Shown here one piece after another: positions 3,336 to 29,011 of a stretch of 39,404 nucleotides of DNA; the first letter of the stretch is position 1; the number at the start of each line of letters is the position of its first letter. Source of the DNA: Gammaproteobacteria bacterium (GTDB lineage: Bacteria > Pseudomonadota > Gammaproteobacteria > JACCYU01). The notes under the pieces were generated by a model that saw nothing but the letters and a program-made list of their open reading frames with translations, ran no database searches and was not told where the DNA came from. Both the position numbers and the translations under genes were made by a program. The stretch covers positions 1-39,404 of the forward strand of contig JACCZW010000125.1 in the NCBI GenBank assembly GCA_013695765.1. The letters are read 5' to 3'.

Positions 3336-5007
3336 CTTCCCTCACATATTCCTTGCGGATCACAAAGTCCCCGAAATGCTCACCGTCGTCGCGTTCTTTC
3401 GCATAGCGCTTGATGACGGGCGTGAGTTCGGCGAGGATTTTTTCTTCCGTAATACCTTCGCGATATAGCTTGCCCAGTCGCTGCCCGTGGAATCCGCCTC
3501 CGAGATACACGTTGTAATGCCCCACGGATTTGCCGACGAAACCGATCTCCGCAATGTATGGCCGCGCGCAGCCGTTGGGGCAGCCGGTCATGCGTAAGGT
3601 GATGGCGTCGTCGCGCAGACCGGCGTCCAGCATGACTTCTTCCAGTTTCGTAATCAGACCCGGCAGGTAACGCTCGCTCTCGGCCATCGCCAGTCCGCAG
3701 GTCGGAAATGCGACGCAGGCCATGGAGTTGAGTCGTAGCGCGGAATGAGCGGTTCCGTCGTCCAGTTTGTATTGCTTGATCAGACGTTCGATCTTCGCTT
3801 TCTGGTTTTCGGCAACGCTTGCGATGATGAGGTTCTGATTGGCGGTCACGCGAAAGTCGCCCTTGTGAATTTTGGCGATCTCGCGCAGGCCCGTCATCAT
3901 CGGATAATCATCGGTATCGCGAATGCGCCCGTTCTCGATAAACAAGGTCACATGCCGCTTGCCGTCAGCGCCTTTCACCCAGCCGTAGCGGTCGCCGTTG
4001 TCGGTGAACTGATAAGGTTTCGCCGGTTCGAGCGCCCAGCCTAAGCGTGATTCCAGTTCGCCCTTGAACCACTCCACGCCGCGGTCGTCGATGGTGTATT
4101 TCAAACGCGCGTGTTTGCGGTTACCGCGATCGCCGAAATCGCGCTGCGTCTTTACCACATGCTCGGCGACTTCCAATACCTGCTCTGGCTTGCAGAAGCC
4201 GATCACGTCCGCCAGCCGCGGAAAGGTCTCCGGTTCGCTGTGCGTCATGCCCATGCCGCCGCCGACCGTGACGTTGAAGCCGGTCAGTTTTTCGTTTTCG
4301 ACGATGGCGATGAAACCCAGATCGTGCGCGTAGATGTCCACGTCGTTGCTGGGCGGCACTGCGATGACCACTTTGAATTTGCGCGGCAGATACACCTTGC
4401 CGTAAAGCGGCTCGTCGGTCTCCGGCGTGCCGGCCACGGGTTTTTCGTCCAGCCAGATCTGATGATAAGCGCGCGTCTTCGGCAACAGGTGTTCGCTGAT
4501 TTGTTTCGCGTACTCGTATACGTTCGCATGCACCTCCGACTGATGCGGATTGGGATTGCACATCACGTTGCGGTTGACGTCGCCACACGCGGCGATGGTG
4601 TCCAGCAAGGTCTCGTTGATCTCGCGAATAGTGCGCTTGAGATTGCGCTTGAGAATGCCGTGCAACTGAAACGTCTGACGAGTCGTAAGTCGTAACGAAC
4701 CGTTCGCGTGCGTGTTGGCCACGCGATCCAGATCCAGCCACTGCTCTGGTGTACACACGCCGGCCGGCATGCGCACGCGGATCATGAACGAATAGGCCGG
4801 CTCCAGCTTCTGCTTGCGGCGCTCCTGACGCAGGTCCCGATCGTCCTGTTGATAGCTGCCGTGAAACTTGAGCAGTGCGGTGTCGTCCTCCGCGATCGCG
4901 CCGGTGATGGGGTCGGCAAGGCCCTGCTCGATCGTGCCGCGCAGGTAATCGCTGTTGTCCTTGATGATCTCGACGCCGGAGCGCTGTGTTTTGGGATCGT
5001 CGTTCAT
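3307..5007 (-). CDS. cysI: Sulfite reductase (NADPH) hemoprotein, beta subunit
   Basis: CysI reduces sulfite to sulfide with six electrons from the flavoprotein CysJ, in cytoplasmic assimilatory sulfate reduction. The 566-aa product matches the family's usual 570. The four cysteines for the [4Fe-4S]-siroheme centre are C431, C437, C476 and C480, in CVAFPTCG and [10 protein letters not shown], each three residues below the E. coli numbering. The N-terminal repeat contains [16 protein letters not shown], which shapes the siroheme pocket. The ATG at 5007 has no clear ribosome binding site, but a -10-like TATACC ends six bases before it, so transcripts may be leaderless. cysJ lies upstream on the same strand with about 500 bp and two tiny genes between, so the pair may not be a simple operon. 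Its 3' end is the edge of the cassette array. Confidence 0.95.
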
Positions 5008-19296: not shown

Positions 19297-19345
19297 AGCC
19301 CCTGCACATCCATAACGAATCGTCATGCAAACCGGGAAGACACGA

Positions 19346-22300
19346 ATGAAAGATGCCGCCATCGCCAGGGTCGCGCTTGCCGCGCGTAGCCGCCTGACCG
19401 GCGTGCAGGCGACTAACGCCGAGCGTTTTGCGCGCGCCTATTTTTCCGGTGTGGCGGCCGAAGACCTGGCCGGCAAGACGCCGGAAGATCTTTACGGCGC
19501 CATGCTTGCCCACTGGCAACTGGCACGGCGGCGGCAACCGGGTACACCCAACATCCGCATTTATAACCCGATCGCAGCCGAGCACAGCTGGCACAGCCCG
19601 CACACCGTGGTCCAGATCGTCACTGACGATATGCCGTTTCTGGTGGACTCGGTCAGCATGGAACTGAATCGACACGGCCTCACCATCCATCTCATTATTC
19701 ATCCGGTTATGCGTATGCGGCGCGATTCCCGCGGTGAACTGATCAATGTAACTGCCGCCAAGGGCGATGGCGACGCGCGGGCCGAGGCCATTATGCATTT
19801 CGAGGTGGATCAGGAGACCGACGCCGCCGCGCTGACCGGGCTTCACGCCCATCTGGAACGGGTGTTGAGCGACGTGCGCGCGGTGGTGGACGACTGGATC
19901 AAGATGCGCGCACGCCTCTACGATGTGATGTCCGCGTTGGAGACGCAAGCCCTGCCGGTGCCGGAGGAGGAGCTTACCGAAACGCTGGCCTTGCTTCGCT
20001 GGATCGACAATCATCACTTTACGTACATTGGTTTTCGCACCTTCGATCTGGTCGAGGAGCATGGCCAGTTGACCTTGCGCAACGCGCCGGGCACCGGCTT
20101 AGGAATCTTCCGCGATAGCGATGATGCACCGATCCCGATCCCGATCCCGCCGCGTCTGCATGGCGTCGCGCGCGCGCAGGAATTGTTGATTATCACCAAA
20201 TCGACCGCGCGCTCGACGGTGCATCGCCCGGCGCATCTGGATCACATCGGCATCAAGCGTTTCGATGAACAAGGCCACGTGATCGGCGAATGGCGTTTTC
20301 AGGGCCTTTACTCCTATCTGGCGTACAGCACCCGTGCGAGCGAGATCCCGCTGCTCAAGCGCAAGGTCGCACGAGTGCTGGGACGCGCCGACCTCGAACC
20401 CAATAGCCACGCCGGCAAGGCTTTGCGCAACATTCTCGAGCAACTGCCGCGCGACGAGATGTTTCAGGCCGCGGAGGACGAACTGTTCGACATTGCGATC
20501 GGCATACTGCATTTACAGGAGCGCGGGCGGCTGAAGCTGTTTCTGCGCCGCGATATATACGGCCGCTTTGTGAGCGCGCTGGTGTACGCGCCGCGCGACC
20601 GTTACAACACCACATTGCGCCTCAGGTTTCAGGAAATTCTGATGGAAGCGTTCGAGGGCCTGAGTGCGGAATTCAACGTGCAGTTCTCCGACTCGGTGCT
20701 GGCGCGCGTCTATTTCATCATCCGCACACCGCTGAACAGCGCGGTGGAAATCACCGCGGCCGAGCTTGAAGCGCGCATGGCCAGCGCCCTGCTGGCGTGG
20801 GAAGATCGGTTGCTCGCGGTTTTCTACGATCACCTTAGCGAGGCGCGTAGCAAAGATCTGTGGCAGCGCTACCGGGATGCATTTCCGGCGTCTTACCGCG
20901 AAGACTTTTTTGCGCTCGCGGCGTTCCGTGACATCGAGGGGTTGCAGACCATTTCGGCAAGCTGCCCCTTGATCACGCATCTGTATCGACTCAGAGACGC
21001 CGCGAACAACATGTTGCGTTTCAAGGTGTTCGGCCGTCACACGACGCTGGCGTTGTCCGACGTACTGCCCATCCTGGAGCGCATGGGTCTGCGCGTGCTC
21101 GCAGCTCGACCTTACGATATCCATCCTCGTGAGGCGGAGCCCTGCTGGATTCTCGATTTTGAGACGACCACAGCGCCCGGACTGGATGTGGAAGTGCTGG
21201 AAGTGAGAGATATCTTTCAGGACGCGTTCACGCGCATCGTCAGCGGCAGGATCGAGAACGACGGCTTCAACCGGCTGGTGCTGGCGGCGCAACTGAACTG
21301 GCGCGAGATCGTATTGCTGCGTGCGCTGTGCAAATACCTGCTTCAGACGCGCCTGCCCTTGAGTCAGGCGTACATGGAGCAGACCCTGGCGAACAACCCG
21401 GCGATCGCGCGCTGGCTGGTGGAACTGTTCAAGCTGCGTTTCGAGCCCGGAATGCCCGCGCAACCGGCTGTGGATGGCGTCAAAACGCGCATCGAGCAGA
21501 CATTGGAGGCGGTGACCAGCCTGGATGAGGATCGCATCCTGCGCTGCTTTTTGGCGCTTATGCTCGCCACCTTGCGCACCAATTACTTTCAGCGCGAAAG
21601 TACGGACGACGACAAGCCTTATCTTGCCTTCAAACTGGACTCGGCCGAGGTCCCGGAACTGCCGCTGCCAAAACCGATGTTCGAAATTTTCGTCTATGCG
21701 CCGTGGGTGGAAGGCGTGCACTTGCGCGGCGGCCGCGTCGCCCGCGGCGGCATCCGCTGGTCTGACCGACGCGAGGATTTTCGTACCGAAGTGCTGGGTC
21801 TCATGAAGGCGCAGACCGTCAAAAACGCGGTCATCGTACCCGTAGGCGCCAAGGGCGGATTCGTGTGCAAGAATCTGCCGCCGCCGGATGATCGAGACGC
21901 CGTCCAGCAGGAGGTCATCCGTTGCTATCGCACCTTTATCAGCGGCCTGCTGGATGTCACCGATAACCTTGTCGATGGTGCGGTGCGACCGCCACCGGAC
22001 ACCGTGCGTCACGACGGGGACGACCCGTATCTGGTCGTGGCCGCCGACAAGGGCACGGCCAGTTTCTCCGACATCGCCAACGAAATCTCCGCGCAATACG
22101 GCTTCTGGCTTGGCGACGCCTTCGCCTCCGGCGGAAGGTACGGTTACGATCACAAGAAAATGGGCATTACCGCGCGCGGTGCGTGGGAGTCCGTGGAACG
22201 GCATTTCCGGGAACTGGGGCTGGACGTGCGCAGCACACCATTCACCGCCGTCGGCGTGGGCGACATGTCCGGCGATGTGTTCGGCAATGGCATGCTGAAG

Positions 22301-24166
22301 TGGCCGAAGACGCGGCTGCTAGCCGCGTTCGACCATCGACATATCTTCATCGATCCCGACCCGGACACCGACCTCGCGTTCGCCGAGCGCCAGCGCCTGT
22401 TCGCGCTGCCGCGTTCCTCTTGGAGCGATTACTCGGTTAGCGCGATTTCAACCGGCGGCGGCGTTTATCCGCGTACGGCGAAGTCCATTGCGTTAAGCCC
22501 GCAAGCGCGCGCGGCGCTGGGCATCCAGGCCGAGCGGTTGCCGCCCAGTGAATTGCTCCGCGCCATCCTGCGCGCGCCGGTTGACCTGTTCTGGAACGGC
22601 GGCATCGGCACCTACGTGAAAGCCAGCGCCGAACGTCACTCCGATGTGGGCGACCGCGGCAACGATGGCGTGCGCGTGGACGCCGGAGAATTGCGCTGCC
22701 TGGTAATCGGCGAGGGCGGCAACTTAGGGTTGACCCAGCTAGCGCGCATCGAATTCGCGCGCGGCGGCGGACTGATCAACACCGACGCGATCGACAACTC
22801 CGCCGGGGTGGATTGTTCGGATCACGAGGTCAACATCAAGATACTGTTGAACCGCGCACTGGCAAAGAGCGAAATCGATCTCGAACAGCGCAATGTGTTG
22901 CTGGCGGAGATGACCGCCGATGTCGCGAGTAAGGTGTTGCGCGAAAATTATTTGCAGACCCAGGCGATCAGCCTCGCCGTCTCGCAAGCCGCGGAACTGC
23001 TGGGCGATCAAAAACGCCTGATTACGCAACTGGAGCGCGAGCGTCTGTTGAATCGCGCGCTCGAAGCGCTGCCGTCGGAGGAAGAGATCGCCAAACGCGA
23101 GACCGCGCAGGCGGGGCTAACGCGCCCGGAGCTCGCGGTGCTGCTCGCTTACAGCAAAATCCGCCTGGCGCACGAACTCACCGGCTCCAATATCGCTGGC
23201 GATCCATATTTCGTGCGCGAACTGCATAACTATTTCCCCGCGAACTTACGTGCTCGGTACGCGCAAGCCCTGGTGGACCACCCGTTGCGCGGTGAGATCA
23301 TCGTCACCCATCTGACTAACGACATCGTCAATCGCATGGGCAGCACGTTTTACATGCTGGTACACGAGCGCACCGGTAACCACGCGGATGATATCGCGCG
23401 AGCGTATGTTGCCGCGTGCGAGATTTTCGGCGCGCGCGAATTGTGGGCGGCGATCGAGGCGCTGGATGGCAAAGTTGTGGCCGCGTTGCAACTGGAAATG
23501 TTGACGGCAGTCTGCCGTCTGGCAGATCGCACCACCGTGTGGCTGCTGCGCAATCGCCGCATGCCACTGGACATTGCCGCCACGGCCGAACATTTTCGCG
23601 GCGGCGTGGAGGTAGTTCGAACGCGCATTCCGCGGCTGTTGCGCGATCATGGACACGAGGAGGTGGAGTTGCACATCGCGGAGCTGTGCGACGCGGGCGT
23701 GCCGGTTGAACTGGCGCAACACGTCGCGGGACAGGAGATCGTGTTTGCCACGCTCAACGTCGTGATGGTCGCCCGCGACACAGACACGCTGCTGGAGGTA
23801 GTGACGGACGTATATTTCGAGCTGGGCTTCGCGCTGTCGTTCGACTGGCTTTACGTGTGCGTGCGTGATTTGCCGGTCTTCGATTACTGGCAACGCGGCG
23901 CGCGCGGCATGTTGCGCGACGACCTGAGCGTCGAACTGCGCAAGCTTACGACCGACGCGCTCAGGCTAACGCCGGACGGCGATTCGTTCACGCAGCGAGT
24001 CGATAGCTGGCTAGAACTCAAACAGACCAAGCTCGCGCATTATCGTAGTGTGATCGCCGAACTGAAATCAGCCGGCAAGCCGAGCTTCGCGATGCTGTCG
24101 GTGGCCGTGCGCGAAGTGCGCGCGCTGGCGCGCGACGGACAAATCAACGCGGAGGATGCGGCTTGA
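19346..24166 (+). CDS. gdhB: NAD-specific glutamate dehydrogenase, large (about 180 kDa) type
   Basis: The enzyme oxidises glutamate to 2-oxoglutarate and ammonium with NAD, a catabolic role. From the ATG at 19346, behind GGGAAG, the product has 1606 aa; an ATG at 19325 adds seven residues. It is full length for the Bac_GDH family. The N-terminal half contains ACT-like regulatory domains (HTVVQIVTDDMPFLVDSVSMEL is diagnostic). The catalytic part lies at about residues 730-1230: RGGRVARGGIRWSDRREDFR, the Lys-containing VPVGAKGGFVCKN, and GVGDMSGDVFGNGML for cofactor binding. A helical C-terminal domain follows. The frame is unbroken over 4.8 kb. Relatives in Pseudomonas and Streptomyces are allosterically regulated. 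It stands alone with its own promoter. Confidence 0.96.
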   Translation: MKDAAIARVALAARSRLTGVQATNAERFARAYFSGVAAEDLAGKTPEDLYGAMLAHWQLARRRQPGTPNIRIYNPIAAEHSWHSPHTVVQIVTDDMPFLVDSVSMELNRHGLTIHLIIHPVMRMRRDSRGELINVTAAKGDGDARAEAIMHFEVDQETDAAALTGLHAHLERVLSDVRAVVDDWIKMRARLYDVMSALETQALPVPEEELTETLALLRWIDNHHFTYIGFRTFDLVEEHGQLTLRNAPGTGLGIFRDSDDAPIPIPIPPRLHGVARAQELLIITKSTARSTVHRPAHLDHIGIKRFDEQGHVIGEWRFQGLYSYLAYSTRASEIPLLKRKVARVLGRADLEPNSHAGKALRNILEQLPRDEMFQAAEDELFDIAIGILHLQERGRLKLFLRRDIYGRFVSALVYAPRDRYNTTLRLRFQEILMEAFEGLSAEFNVQFSDSVLARVYFIIRTPLNSAVEITAAELEARMASALLAWEDRLLAVFYDHLSEARSKDLWQRYRDAFPASYREDFFALAAFRDIEGLQTISASCPLITHLYRLRDAANNMLRFKVFGRHTTLALSDVLPILERMGLRVLAARPYDIHPREAEPCWILDFETTTAPGLDVEVLEVRDIFQDAFTRIVSGRIENDGFNRLVLAAQLNWREIVLLRALCKYLLQTRLPLSQAYMEQTLANNPAIARWLVELFKLRFEPGMPAQPAVDGVKTRIEQTLEAVTSLDEDRILRCFLALMLATLRTNYFQRESTDDDKPYLAFKLDSAEVPELPLPKPMFEIFVYAPWVEGVHLRGGRVARGGIRWSDRREDFRTEVLGLMKAQTVKNAVIVPVGAKGGFVCKNLPPPDDRDAVQQEVIRCYRTFISGLLDVTDNLVDGAVRPPPDTVRHDGDDPYLVVAADKGTASFSDIANEISAQYGFWLGDAFASGGRYGYDHKKMGITARGAWESVERHFRELGLDVRSTPFTAVGVGDMSGDVFGNGMLKWPKTRLLAAFDHRHIFIDPDPDTDLAFAERQRLFALPRSSWSDYSVSAISTGGGVYPRTAKSIALSPQARAALGIQAERLPPSELLRAILRAPVDLFWNGGIGTYVKASAERHSDVGDRGNDGVRVDAGELRCLVIGEGGNLGLTQLARIEFARGGGLINTDAIDNSAGVDCSDHEVNIKILLNRALAKSEIDLEQRNVLLAEMTADVASKVLRENYLQTQAISLAVSQAAELLGDQKRLITQLERERLLNRALEALPSEEEIAKRETAQAGLTRPELAVLLAYSKIRLAHELTGSNIAGDPYFVRELHNYFPANLRARYAQALVDHPLRGEIIVTHLTNDIVNRMGSTFYMLVHERTGNHADDIARAYVAACEIFGARELWAAIEALDGKVVAALQLEMLTAVCRLADRTTVWLLRNRRMPLDIAATAEHFRGGVEVVRTRIPRLLRDHGHEEVELHIAELCDAGVPVELAQHVAGQEIVFATLNVVMVARDTDTLLEVVTDVYFELGFALSFDWLYVCVRDLPVFDYWQRGARGMLRDDLSVELRKLTTDALRLTPDGDSFTQRVDSWLELKQTKLAHYRSVIAELKSAGKPSFAMLSVAVREVRALARDGQINAEDAA

Positions 24167-24354
24167 CTTGTCGCTCTTCCGCCAACCTACGCGGGCTTCT
24201 AGTACAGGCCGCCGATTATGGCGTGCGGTTTAGCGACGCCGTTGTTTGCTGCCGCATGGATGTGCTTAATTGCGTTGGTCTGCTCGGCAGTTCGCGCGTG
24301 CGCTGAATCGACATGCGCATGACAGCGCGTGTAAAGTCCTTTACCCTTGGCGCC

Positions 24355-24600
24355 ATGCAACCTGACGACATAAAGACACTGATCGAGGCCGGCATTCCTG
24401 GTGCGCAGGCGATTGTGACCGGCGACGGCTACAAGTTCGAAGCCGTGGTTATCAGCGAGGCGTTCGAGGGCTTAAGCATGGTCAAGGAACAGCAGCAGGT
24501 TTACGCCACGGTGAACGCGCAGATCGCCAGCGGCGAGCTGCACGCATTGACCATAAAGGCTTACACGCCCGACGAGTGGCGGGTCCTGAACGCGCGTTAG
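24355..24600 (+). CDS. ibaG: BolA-family protein IbaG
   Basis: From the ATG at 24355 the product has 81 aa (MQPDDIKTLIEAGIPGAQ...). It contains GDGYKFEAVVISEAFEGLSMVKEQQ-type BolA sequence and ends HALTIKAYTPDEW, as in E. coli IbaG (84 aa). The family binds monothiol glutaredoxins through a shared [2Fe-2S] cluster and takes part in iron-sulfur trafficking. An upstream in-frame ATG at 24313 adds 14 residues not found in the family. No ribosome binding site is visible. In many proteobacteria it neighbours cell-envelope genes; here the neighbours are glutamate dehydrogenase and cytochromes. Confidence 0.85.
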   Translation: MQPDDIKTLIEAGIPGAQAIVTGDGYKFEAVVISEAFEGLSMVKEQQQVYATVNAQIASGELHALTIKAYTPDEWRVLNAR

Positions 24601-24648: not shown

Positions 24649-24972
24649 TCAGTCGATCTCCGGCTGAGACAAACCTTGTTGCTGCGAAAAATACGCGGCC
24701 AGATCTTCAATATCCTGCTCAGACAGCGGCCCGGCCATGCCGGCCATGGTGGAATTTTCCCGTGCGCCCGACTTGTAGTCGTGCAGGGCCTGCGTCAGAT
24801 AGTCCTCGTGCTGGCCCGCGAGCTTGGGGTAAGTCGGTGAAGTACTGTTGCCGTCCGGTCCGTGACAGGAGGCGCATTGCTGCGCCGTTTTCTTGCCAGC
24901 GGCGGGGTCACCCTCCGCGTGCGCGACGTTGAAAAACAGCGTGACGCTCAAGGCCAGAAGCATCGCTTTCAT
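24649..24972 (-). CDS. Periplasmic monoheme cytochrome c
   Basis: The product has 107 aa. A signal peptide (MKAMLLALSVTLFFNVAHA) is probably cut after residue 19. One heme site, C33-ASC-H37, and a distal Met in ENSTMAGMAGPLS make it a class I cytochrome, closest to the half-domains of cytochrome c4 (YPKLAGQHEDYLTQALHDYKSG). It would shuttle electrons in the periplasm. It starts three bases after the stop of the pentaheme cytochrome, so the two are one transcription unit and may hand electrons to each other. Confidence 0.9.
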   Translation of the reverse strand: MKAMLLALSVTLFFNVAHAEGDPAAGKKTAQQCASCHGPDGNSTSPTYPKLAGQHEDYLTQALHDYKSGARENSTMAGMAGPLSEQDIEDLAAYFSQQQGLSQPEID

Positions 24973-24975
24973 TGT

Positions 24976-26733
24976 TTATTGCCCCTTTTTTGTAGTGCCT
25001 GACTGTGGCTGTTCAGCCGCAGCCGCTTTTCCCGATTGCTGCTGTCCGCCGCCGGCAACCTGGGAAATAATGTAGTCAACCGCGAGTTTCACGTCGGCAT
25101 CGCTGAGCTGCGGATGACCGCCTTTCGCAGGCATGGCGCCGACGCCACCGATGGCGCTGGTGTAAAGGGCCTGCGCGCCCATGGCGATGCGCGACTGCCA
25201 CGCGCCGTGGTCGGTTATCTTCGGTGCACCCAGCGCGCCTGAATCGTGACACGAAGCGCATATGCCCTGATAAACAGATTCGTTGTCGGTTGATGCGCCC
25301 CGTGCGGCTATTTGATTAATACTTTGTCCCTTTTTTGCAGCGCCCGACTGCGGCTGTTTGGCCGCAGCCGCTTTCTGTTGTCCGCCGCCCACGACCTGGG
25401 AAATAATGTAGTCAACCGCGAGTTTCACCTCGGCATCGCTGAGCTGGGGATGACCGCCTTTCGCAGGCATCGCGCCCACACCACCGATGGCGCTGGTGTA
25501 GAGGGCTTGTGCACCCATGGCAATGCGCGACTGCCACGCGCCGCGGTCGGTTATCTTCGGTGCACCCAGCGCGCCTGAATCGTGACACGAAGCGCACATG
25601 CCCTGATAAACAGATTCGTTGTCGGCCGACGCGCCGCGTGCGGCTATTTGCTCGATACTTTGTCCGGTTTTTGCAGCGCCTGACTGCTGTTTGGCCGCGG
25701 CCGCTTTTTCTGATTGCTGTTGTCCGCCGCCGGCAACCTGAGAAATAATATAGTCGACGGCAAGTTTCACCTCGGCGTCGCTGAGCTGCGGATGACCGCC
25801 TTTGGCAGGCATCGCGCCCACACCACCGATGGCGCTGGTGTAAAGGGCTTGTGAACCCATGGCGATGCGCGTCTCCCACGCGCCGCTGTCGGTTATTTTC
25901 GGTGCACCCAGCGCGCCTGAATCGTGACACGAAGCGCACATGCCCTGATAGACTGATTCGTTTTCAAGTGCTGCGCCGCCTGCGGCTGCCTGCTTGATAC
26001 CTGGTCCCATGGCGGGGGGCTGAGATTCTTGTGCGGCCTTACCGCCTGCGGACGCGGTCTGCTGAGCACCGCCGGCTTCGCTGACCATGTAATCGACAGC
26101 GGCCTGCACGTCCGCGTCGCTCAGGCTGGGATCGCCGCCCTTGGGCGGCATGGCGCCGAACCCGTTGATGGCGTGCGAATATAGCGTTTGTTGGCCCTGC
26201 TGGATGCGTGGCTGCCAGGCCGTTTTGTCACCCAGCTTGGGCGCGCCGGAGGCGCCGGAGTCGTGGCAACTAGCGCAAACTTGCGCATAGGTCTGCTCGC
26301 CGGCCGCCGACTTCGAAGACGTTTGCTGACCGCCAGACGACGCGGTCTGTTGCGGTTTGCTGCCCGCGGACGCCGCACTTCCCAGCGACTCGAAATACGC
26401 GCCGATATTGGCCATATCCTTGGCGGAAAGCGTTACGGCCTGGGCGTGCATCGTGTCGTGATCGCGCTGACCGGCCTTGTATGCCTGTAACGCGGAGACG
26501 ATGTAATCGGAGTGCTGACCGCCCAGCTTGGGTACGTGATAGGACGGATACACGTTGGTATAACCGGGTATCCCGTGACAGCCTAGACAGGTGTCGGCTT
26601 TAAGCTTGCCTGCCGCGATGTCCTCTTGCGCCAGCACCGAACCGCTCAATGATCCGCACAGAACCGCGACTGCGCAAGGCCAGGTGGCTTTGATCGATAA
26701 CTTTCCGCCAGTGCCTGGCAGCTTTCGCCTCAT
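24976..26733 (-). CDS. Pentaheme cytochrome c with tandem c5-like domains
   Basis: The product has 585 aa. A signal peptide ends near residue 35 (SVLA-QE). The first domain is c4-like, with C49-LGC-H53 and LGGQHSDYIVSALQAYKAG. Four c5-like domains follow, each with CASCH, GAPK, a W-x2-RI helix, a Met in GAMPxKGG, and LSDADV/LSDAEV plus VDYIIS. Five hemes in all. The last three c5 domains are nearly identical, about 112-114 residues each, joined by low-complexity Gln/Ala/Lys/Gly linkers (GGGQQQSEKAAAAK). This points to recent internal duplication. A GGAGGAG site precedes the ATG. It could act as a periplasmic electron wire or store; the partner enzyme is not in the window. Confidence 0.9.
   Translation of the reverse strand: MRRKLPGTGGKLSIKATWPCAVAVLCGSLSGSVLAQEDIAAGKLKADTCLGCHGIPGYTNVYPSYHVPKLGGQHSDYIVSALQAYKAGQRDHDTMHAQAVTLSAKDMANIGAYFESLGSAASAGSKPQQTASSGGQQTSSKSAAGEQTYAQVCASCHDSGASGAPKLGDKTAWQPRIQQGQQTLYSHAINGFGAMPPKGGDPSLSDADVQAAVDYMVSEAGGAQQTASAGGKAAQESQPPAMGPGIKQAAAGGAALENESVYQGMCASCHDSGALGAPKITDSGAWETRIAMGSQALYTSAIGGVGAMPAKGGHPQLSDAEVKLAVDYIISQVAGGGQQQSEKAAAAKQQSGAAKTGQSIEQIAARGASADNESVYQGMCASCHDSGALGAPKITDRGAWQSRIAMGAQALYTSAIGGVGAMPAKGGHPQLSDAEVKLAVDYIISQVVGGGQQKAAAAKQPQSGAAKKGQSINQIAARGASTDNESVYQGICASCHDSGALGAPKITDHGAWQSRIAMGAQALYTSAIGGVGAMPAKGGHPQLSDADVKLAVDYIISQVAGGGQQQSGKAAAAEQPQSGTTKKGQ
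25049..25970 (-). repeat. Three tandem DNA repeats inside the pentaheme cytochrome gene
   Basis: Three consecutive units with periods of 336 and 342 bp (matching points at 25061, 25397 and 25739) encode nearly identical c5-like domains plus linkers. The DNA differs at scattered positions only, so duplication is recent relative to the older domain at about 26085-26290, which is only moderately similar. In-frame expansion or loss by recombination between units is likely. Confidence 0.9.
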
Positions 26734-27012: not shown

Positions 27013-27246
27013 CTACAAAACGTCGCCGGGCGGTCTGGGTTCGTCATTGGCGTCGCCGAATATACTGCCGATCTCGGACTCAAGCGGCGCAGGGTCGCCG
27101 TAGTCGACCGGCTCTGAGTTGGCGTCCTGCGTGAAGATGTCCGTAAATACGTTGCCCGCATCCTCGCCATCATCGTCATCTCCGCCGCAACCAGCCATCA
27201 GCAACGTTGCTGCGCAGAGCAGCGCAACAAGTGAGCGCGTAATCAT
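27013..27246 (-). CDS. Small acidic lipoprotein
   Basis: The product has 77 aa. The N-terminus MITRSLVALLCAATLLMAGCGGDDDD has a lipobox (LMAGC, lipidated Cys at 19), and the D/G run after it suggests delivery to the outer membrane. The rest is acidic with no known domain; IFTQDANSEPVDYGDP has an EF-hand-like look, but no complete calcium loop. The ATG overlaps the stop of the DUF4331 gene as ATGA, so translation is coupled and the two products probably work together. Confidence 0.7.
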   Translation of the reverse strand: MITRSLVALLCAATLLMAGCGGDDDDGEDAGNVFTDIFTQDANSEPVDYGDPAPLESEIGSIFGDANDEPRPPGDVL

Positions 27247-28790
27247 AGCCCGGCACCTCCGCCATTCGGCTCGCTGGACTCGAAGGGCGAGCCCGGCAAA
27301 GGCAGACCCAGATACGGAAACTGATCGATGAACAGGCCGTCTCCGGCGTTGGCCAGCGACGCGCCGTCGGTAACCACAGCGCCCGGCACCACGCTCGGGC
27401 TGGCGGGATTGCTCACATCGCAGGTTTGCAGGCCATTGGGATTCTCGGCGGTAATGGCGCCCAGCGCGACACTAAGCTCGATGTCCACTACGTCGTCTAT
27501 GGGTCGCCGGCCATTGGGAAAGCCGCCTAAGTCGCAGTCCAGGAAAGCAAGATCGCTCTGACTGCCGATGGGTGCCGGTACCAGAGTGTTAAGCCGCAAC
27601 ATCTCGCCAGCGCCTGCCAGGGTGTCTAGATTGACGTTGGCCGGCTTGGTTAAACCGGGCACGCCGGTCACAAACGCCTGCACCAGATCGAGCCGGGGCA
27701 GTGTCGGAACCGCGGTGTCGAACAGCACGTTAGCCAGCACCGGCAAGGTCGGGTTGGTCACGTAGGTGCCGAAGTTACTGACATCATTGGCCGGCTGGCT
27801 CGCATTGAACAGATTCTTGTCCGCCAGGCCGATTACCACCTCGTTGACCAGTGGCGAGCCCAGACGCGACACCTGCGTCCACGCACCGCCGTCGGCTGGG
27901 GCGTATTCACACCCGGCGTGGGATCCAGCACGCGCGCCTGCGGCAGGCTGGCGGTGGCCCATGCGCCGATGACCGGTTCCTGTCCGGCGGTCAGGCACGC
28001 GGTCGGTATCTCCAGTGCGAATGAGGTGACGTTCTTGTCGTCGATGATGTTCTGGCCCTCGCTGCGGTCGCCGACCGGATTCAGATTGATCAGGTCGAAC
28101 ACTTCGCCCAGATTGATATAGAAACCTTCGCGGCGCTGACCGACGGTTACGCGCGCACCCGCGGCGCTGCAACCGGGGATGGTAACGTCATAGATGTGCG
28201 CGTCGGCGTAGCTTTGATAATCGGGGATGGATTTCTCGCCTGTTATCGACCGGCTTGATAAAGCTCGTAGCACCGCTAGGATCGGTCACCGGCTGGCTGA
28301 CGCCTGAACGCCGGTCGCCGCGTACCACGTTCATGGTATAGCGCTCGACCCTGTTCAGATCGGGATCGGCGGGCGTGCTGATCGGGCCGACATTGATCAA
28401 GGGAATTTCAGATGCGGTGGGCGCGCCGTCCAGTCCCGGCCCGGTGGGTACGGAGAGGTTGCGAAAGCTCGTATCGAACTGGAATTGAAAGGTGATGTCC
28501 TCGACCGCGTCGCCGTTGTTATCGATGTGAATCTCGTACAGCGCAGAATCGTCCAGGGCGAAGTAGTTGGGACCGCCGTAGGAATCCTGAAGCGGCGCCC
28601 AGTTAGCGATGAGGGTGACGAAGCCCTCGCGCCCGGACTCGTAGCTGTTGAACATGTAAAAATCGGTGTTGTCCACTCTGGGCAGGCCGGCTATGAACGG
28701 CGCCTCACGGTGACTGGAAGCTTGCGCCATAAGCGAAGCGCCGACGCATGCCGCGGCGACTAGTGCGTGCGCAACAGGTTTGGTTTGCAT
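27243..28790 (-). pseudogene. DUF4331 secreted protein, two frameshifts
   Basis: From the ATG at 28790 (behind GAGGGGAA) a signal peptide leads into ASSHREAPFIAGLPRVDNTDFYMF, the signature start of DUF4331 proteins. The family sequence then changes frame twice: near 28243 (PVDN to GEKSIPDYQSYADAHIYDV) and near 27890 (GVNTPQ to DGGAWTQVSRLGSPLVNEVVIG). It continues to the end at 27243. First and last parts are in the same frame, but a stop at 28188 blocks reading straight through. Every family block is present, so the gene was recently intact, or the frameshifts are sequence errors. The function of DUF4331 is unknown; the protein is periplasmic or exported. A lipoprotein gene is translationally coupled downstream. 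Confidence 0.75.
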
Positions 28791-29011
28791 GATATTCCCC
28801 TCTTGTAAGTTAGTCCGACATTGCACGGAAAACTCGGTGTCCGGCATTGGTTAGATACCAATTGCTTTTTTGTCCGGATGCACTTTGATTGCCTGACCTT
28901 TGAAGATGCGAATGCCCCACCGCGAGCTTGCGTGAGCGGGGTGTCGGGCTCGCATCGCCACCGGCGAATATGCCACGAACCGGTGTCGCCTGCCAAATGT
29001 TTATTTGAGAA

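Follow-up and report, generated by a model that had tools for sequence, protein, structure and literature searches.

In this study, we describe a gammaproteobacterial cytochrome in which five one-heme modules, one of them cytochrome c4-like and four c5/c555-like, follow one another in a single chain. We propose that it is a soluble periplasmic carrier, which would take electrons from either periplasmic dehydrogenases or the bc1 complex and convey them by tethered diffusion to aa3-type oxidases, and that it arose through capture of c5-like modules and subsequent tandem growth; taken as a whole, we regard this reading as moderately probable. The gene was found in a stretch of DNA of 39,404 nucleotides (the window), and according to the list of open reading frames and inspection of the sequence it is intact, without an internal stop. 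The encoded protein has CXXCH motifs at residues 49, 153, 266, 380 and 492, and a Met-ligand motif lies downstream of each (M95 in the first module; M195, M308, M422 and M534, within GAMPxKGG, in the others). It matches the Pfam families Cytochrome_CBB3 (E 9.9e-64) and Cytochrom_C (E 2.5e-35), and the calculated mass of the mature protein is 55.1 kDa, or 58.2 kDa with five hemes. These data bear out the pentaheme anatomy described in an earlier note on this DNA, including the c4-like and older c5-like domains ahead of three repeated c5-like domains. The parts are as follows.

24976..26733, minus strand: pentaheme modular cytochrome gene, 585 amino acids (intact open reading frame, five CXXCH, Pfam)
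26629..26733, minus strand: residues 1-35, likely a signal peptide of the Sec type (by inspection: hydrophobic core after a basic N-terminus, VLA followed by QED)
26380..26628, minus strand: c4-like domain with one heme, residues 36-118, which represents the original gene (PDB 6q2u match; class orthologs)
26308..26379, minus strand: linker 1, 24 amino acids, Ser/Gln/Ala-rich (composition; pLDDT <50)
26077..26307, minus strand: c5/c555-like domain 1, residues 143-219, older (PDB c-555 4j20 match)
25969..26076, minus strand: linker 2, 36 amino acids (sequence inspection)
25738..25968, minus strand: repeated c5-like domain, copy 1, residues 256-332 (repeat and domain comparison)
25627..25737, minus strand: linker 3, 37 amino acids, with an inner KTGQ and a short predicted helix (sequence; AlphaFold)
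25396..25626, minus strand: repeated c5-like domain, copy 2, residues 370-446 (repeat and domain comparison)
25291..25395, minus strand: linker 4, 35 amino acids, with an inner KKGQ and a short predicted helix (sequence; AlphaFold)
25060..25290, minus strand: repeated c5-like domain, copy 3, residues 482-558 (repeat and domain comparison)
24979..25059, minus strand: C-terminal tail, 27 amino acids, ending in KKGQ (KGQ-stop also closes the four-heme and one-heme orthologs)

Each domain of 77-83 amino acids contains one CXXCH motif, and successive motifs are 104-114 residues apart and accompanied by Met-ligand motifs, unlike in packed multiheme wires of the c3/c7/MtrC type with their close CXXCH spacing and bis-His ligation; weak c7/MtrC matches to the protein span the CXXCH neighbourhood only. 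Domain 1 matches the PDB cytochrome c4 6q2u (E 1.1e-18), and the c5-like modules match c-555 4j20 (E 1.7e-21) better than 8smr_L (E 7.9e-14) and 1cc5 (E 2.5e-12). The array modules match the class-I domain of cytochrome c5 in the Pseudomonas/Shewanella sense, but the extra CxxC pair after the Met ligand is absent, all cysteines of the mature protein being part of CXXCH, whereas 8smr_L has KGTCADC at this place. The linkers (24-37 amino acids) consist to 83-100% of A, G, S, Q, T, K, P and E. In an AlphaFold model that is weak overall (mean pLDDT 58, domain 1 poorly modelled, 5-sequence alignment), the c5 domains are folded, about 20 residues of each inter-c5 linker have a pLDDT <50, and a short helix precedes each of the three repeated domains. 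Both the low-complexity composition and the model agree with the flexible linkers that had been proposed for this protein.

A gene for a small cytochrome starts 3 bp past the pentaheme stop codon, and the same gene comes next in the sister species and in most of the class orthologs that were read. The neighbourhood contains the following features.

24982..24987, minus strand: AAGGGG within the KKGQ codons, where the downstream gene likely has its ribosome-binding site (position and conservation)
24649..24972, minus strand: downstream monoheme c4-half cytochrome, 107 amino acids (open reading frame; Pfam Cytochrom_C E 8.9e-13)
24313-24600: BolA-like gene, flanking the cytochrome pair
19325-24166: NAD-glutamate-dehydrogenase-like gene, flanking the pair (named from size and sequence)
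27243-28847, minus strand: DUF4331 gene, flanking the pair

The DUF4331 gene has a peculiarity of its own, in that its middle third (27920-28264) matches in a different frame from both ends, as two compensating indels would produce, while its ortholog matches in a single frame in both G001, a member of the same genus, and G002, from the sister genus.

The c4-like domain was found in 94 of 369 genomes of the class (E below 1e-20), and at the loci read it occurs either as a monoheme gene beside another of this kind or within a diheme fusion protein; we therefore take the host gene for the first half of a cytochrome c4 that is split in two. The likeness to cytochrome c4 (PDB 6q2u, 8smr) extends to these fused orthologs, but here the halves are adjacent separate genes and the first half bears four extra modules. 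All three family members (source, sister species and sister genus) have retained AAGGGGCAATAA with an ATG close behind it, and AAGGGG in the last codons of the pentaheme protein is, judging from this conservation, likely the ribosome site of the second c4 half. In the sister species (G001), the same gene encodes four hemes, in one c4-like and three c5-like domains, two of the latter near-identical, and the same small cytochrome follows. In G002, the gene consists of the c4-like domain only, ends with KANKGQ-stop and also precedes the small cytochrome. The number of copies, which had been suggested to vary between strains, does vary, and the variation seen is between species: five hemes here, four in the sister species and one in the sister genus. 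Such a natural series at one locus in one family provides a handle on what extra tethered hemes do. Among the 369 class genomes, the array was seen in the source genus only, with the loci read for about one-third of the 94 and the remainder assessed by open-frame length only; with the array as query, the same genomes yielded 30 loci, none of which outside the genus has more than two c5-like domains by motif count.

The array originated in the c4-half gene and is related to a multi-c5 paralog. This membrane-anchored gene encodes four c5 domains in the source genome (contig C75, L008), four in G001 and two in G002. In L008 (about 4530-4565), the frame of the third c5 domain is broken where 2 bp are missing from a GC run, be it real or a sequencing error. 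The older c5-like domain of the array shares 72% identity with domain 1 of paralog B. Array domain 2 and paralog domain 1 come together in the DNA tree (support 94) but not in the protein tree. Array domains 3-5 cluster, in the DNA and the protein tree alike (97-98), with domains 2 and 4 of the paralog in G000 and with its domains 2 and 3 in G001. As the two domain types occur in the same order in both genes, a copied block is the simplest reading, and since the two-domain form is present in G002, which is without the array, the paralog is the likely source. We infer from these sequence comparisons that the copy likely went from the paralog to the array gene. According to our proposal, the first half of the split cytochrome c4 would have acquired a c5-like block related to this paralog, the last module would then have been duplicated in tandem together with its linker, with the terminal KKGQ codons and their likely ribosome site retained, and the units would have been homogenised or re-duplicated independently in each species. 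The locus would thereby display a stepwise route from split c4 through c5 module capture and tandem growth to homogenisation.

A repeat finder delimited three 300-nt copies with 87-91% identity to the reference copy and spacings of 336 and 342 bp, and TRF returned the same array with a score of 1515, the score of anything else in the window being at most 59. At the protein level the last three domains are 89-94% identical to one another, against 56-60% between them and the older c5-like domain. The triplication and its two periods stand as first described, although 'near-identical' was slightly generous at this level of DNA identity. The assumption that the duplication was recent is not supported. 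The units within the pentaheme gene differ by a dS of 0.26-0.39 and the two near-identical units of G001 by a dS of 0.21, all from short domains of 82 codons, while at the flanking genes the species baseline is 0.373 for glutamate dehydrogenase (979 codons) and 0.426 for the small cytochrome. The duplications, or their last homogenisation, are therefore about as old as the species split. In an AU test, positional orthology of the units across the species was rejected (p 0.011) and species-wise clustering was not (0.42), which suggests either that the last units originated independently in the two species or that gene conversion keeps them alike. A literature search on gene conversion and tandem repeats of heme domains brought up no useful papers.

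The units evolve under purifying selection: with a dN/dS of 0.11-0.17 between them, each module is under constraint. This bears on the explanation that we consider the most serious competitor, though an unlikely one, namely a near-neutral expansion, in which unequal crossing-over duplicated a robust module, the copies were tolerated as each works alone, and copy number drifts without adaptive value. The restriction of the array to one genus, the differing unit numbers of its two members, the gain of modules by the paralog in the same genus and the recombination signalled by homogenisation all fit such a process. However, every unit has kept all its ligands, and the low dN/dS is combined with a divergence comparable to that of the species split; what the dN/dS indicates is that each module is constrained, not that their number is beneficial. 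At the other extreme, the genus might tune the length of its periplasmic electron chain by recombination among heme-module repeats, so that module number would be under selection and evolve rapidly, perhaps varying even within a species, and would determine reach or the number of partners; we put this forward as a speculation with a rather low chance of being right.

The source genome has a cytochrome c1 match, genes for cytochrome c assembly (Ccm) and three aa3-type oxidases. A cbb3 oxidase or a cd1 nitrite reductase was rejected as a partner, since no ccoP above cut-off was found in the whole genome and it contains no Cytochrom_D1 match; the ccoP model also stays below cut-off for the pentaheme protein, which is thus not a cbb3 oxidase subunit III. 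In the mechanism that we favour, flexible tethers rich in Gln, Ala, Ser and Lys would let the five separate class-I heme modules, all His/Met, collide with one another and with partner proteins and in this way hand on electrons, which would come from periplasmic dehydrogenases or the bc1 complex and go to the aa3-type oxidases. We infer these partners from genome content only, and additional modules would presumably bring a benefit. At another locus (L087, 747-2692), a methanol-metabolism-type cytochrome (weak match) adjoins a gene for a MoxJ-like binding protein, and a PQQ dehydrogenase match lies at another place in the genome; PQQ-dependent alcohol oxidation is possible.

The extra modules could instead form a periplasmic electron reservoir, raising the number of hemes per molecule for charge storage or flux buffering, with reach or tethering incidental. 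The near equivalence of the repeated modules (see the protein identities above) speaks for this, as there is then probably no potential gradient and mainly added capacity; on the other hand, capacity could be obtained by higher expression of a monoheme gene, and the linkers were retained along with the domains, so that we find the reservoir improbable.

Extending an electron shuttle by copied one-heme modules on linkers is a neat solution that has precedents in PgcA and in the neisserial tri-heme CcoP. PgcA of Geobacter sulfurreducens has three modules and reaches up to 18 nm, has paralogs with 3-14 hemes, and demonstrates the tethered mechanism for linked monoheme modules (PMC11520253). The pentaheme protein shares with it, by sequence and model only, independent monoheme modules on flexible low-complexity linkers, and by analogy the suggested reach across the periplasm is plausible. 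PgcA, however, carries a lipid anchor, is exported from the cell, joins its modules by (PT)x linkers and uses His/His ligation in the third of them (PMC11520253), whereas in the pentaheme protein inspection of the signal peptide region revealed no lipobox, PT-repeats are absent, the linkers are of the Gln/Ala/Ser/Lys type, and the modules are c4 and c5 with apparent His/Met ligation throughout. An extracellular or outer-membrane role like that of PgcA, for which the common principle of architecture might be cited (PMC11520253), is very improbable; besides the missing lipobox, no porin-cytochrome genes were noticed in the gene's neighbourhood, and c4/c5-type domains serve respiratory chains in other Proteobacteria. 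This respiratory setting contrasts with Geobacter iron reduction. In the neisserial tri-heme CcoP, a c5 domain has been added through an AlaSerPro-rich linker, and c5 (CycB) carries two tethered domains (PMC2924362). Our protein resembles CcoP in that c5 was joined to a different cytochrome by a linker of low complexity, but the host here is a split c4 and not an oxidase subunit, and the added module was then amplified. Finally, we can practically dismiss an assembly artefact of a single-unit gene, which the earlier note had named as the possible refutation: the genome is a 164-contig draft, but linker indels and 7-11% DNA divergence separate the units, and the separately assembled sister species has two units.

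The di-c5 cytochromes of Gammaproteobacteria (L090, L094, L102 and others), often membrane-anchored, resemble the array in their c5-like domains and Ala/Pro-rich linkers but usually have two modules, and the maximum seen outside the genus is three (L093, Thiotrichaceae). Among 80 c5 relatives from named genomes, the motif used identified a c5 frame in 72; 46 of these have one heme, 24 have two, L093 has three, and one (L146) combines two c5 with other hemes. The linker of one di-c5 protein (L207, genome G146) is a long EEAAPA/EEAAPV repeat. Four further proteins (L031, L034, L036 and L038) have four hemes, in two other cytochrome domains and two CxxC-bearing c5 domains, and the gene next to L036 and L038 resembles an oxidase subunit II with a CXXCH of its own.
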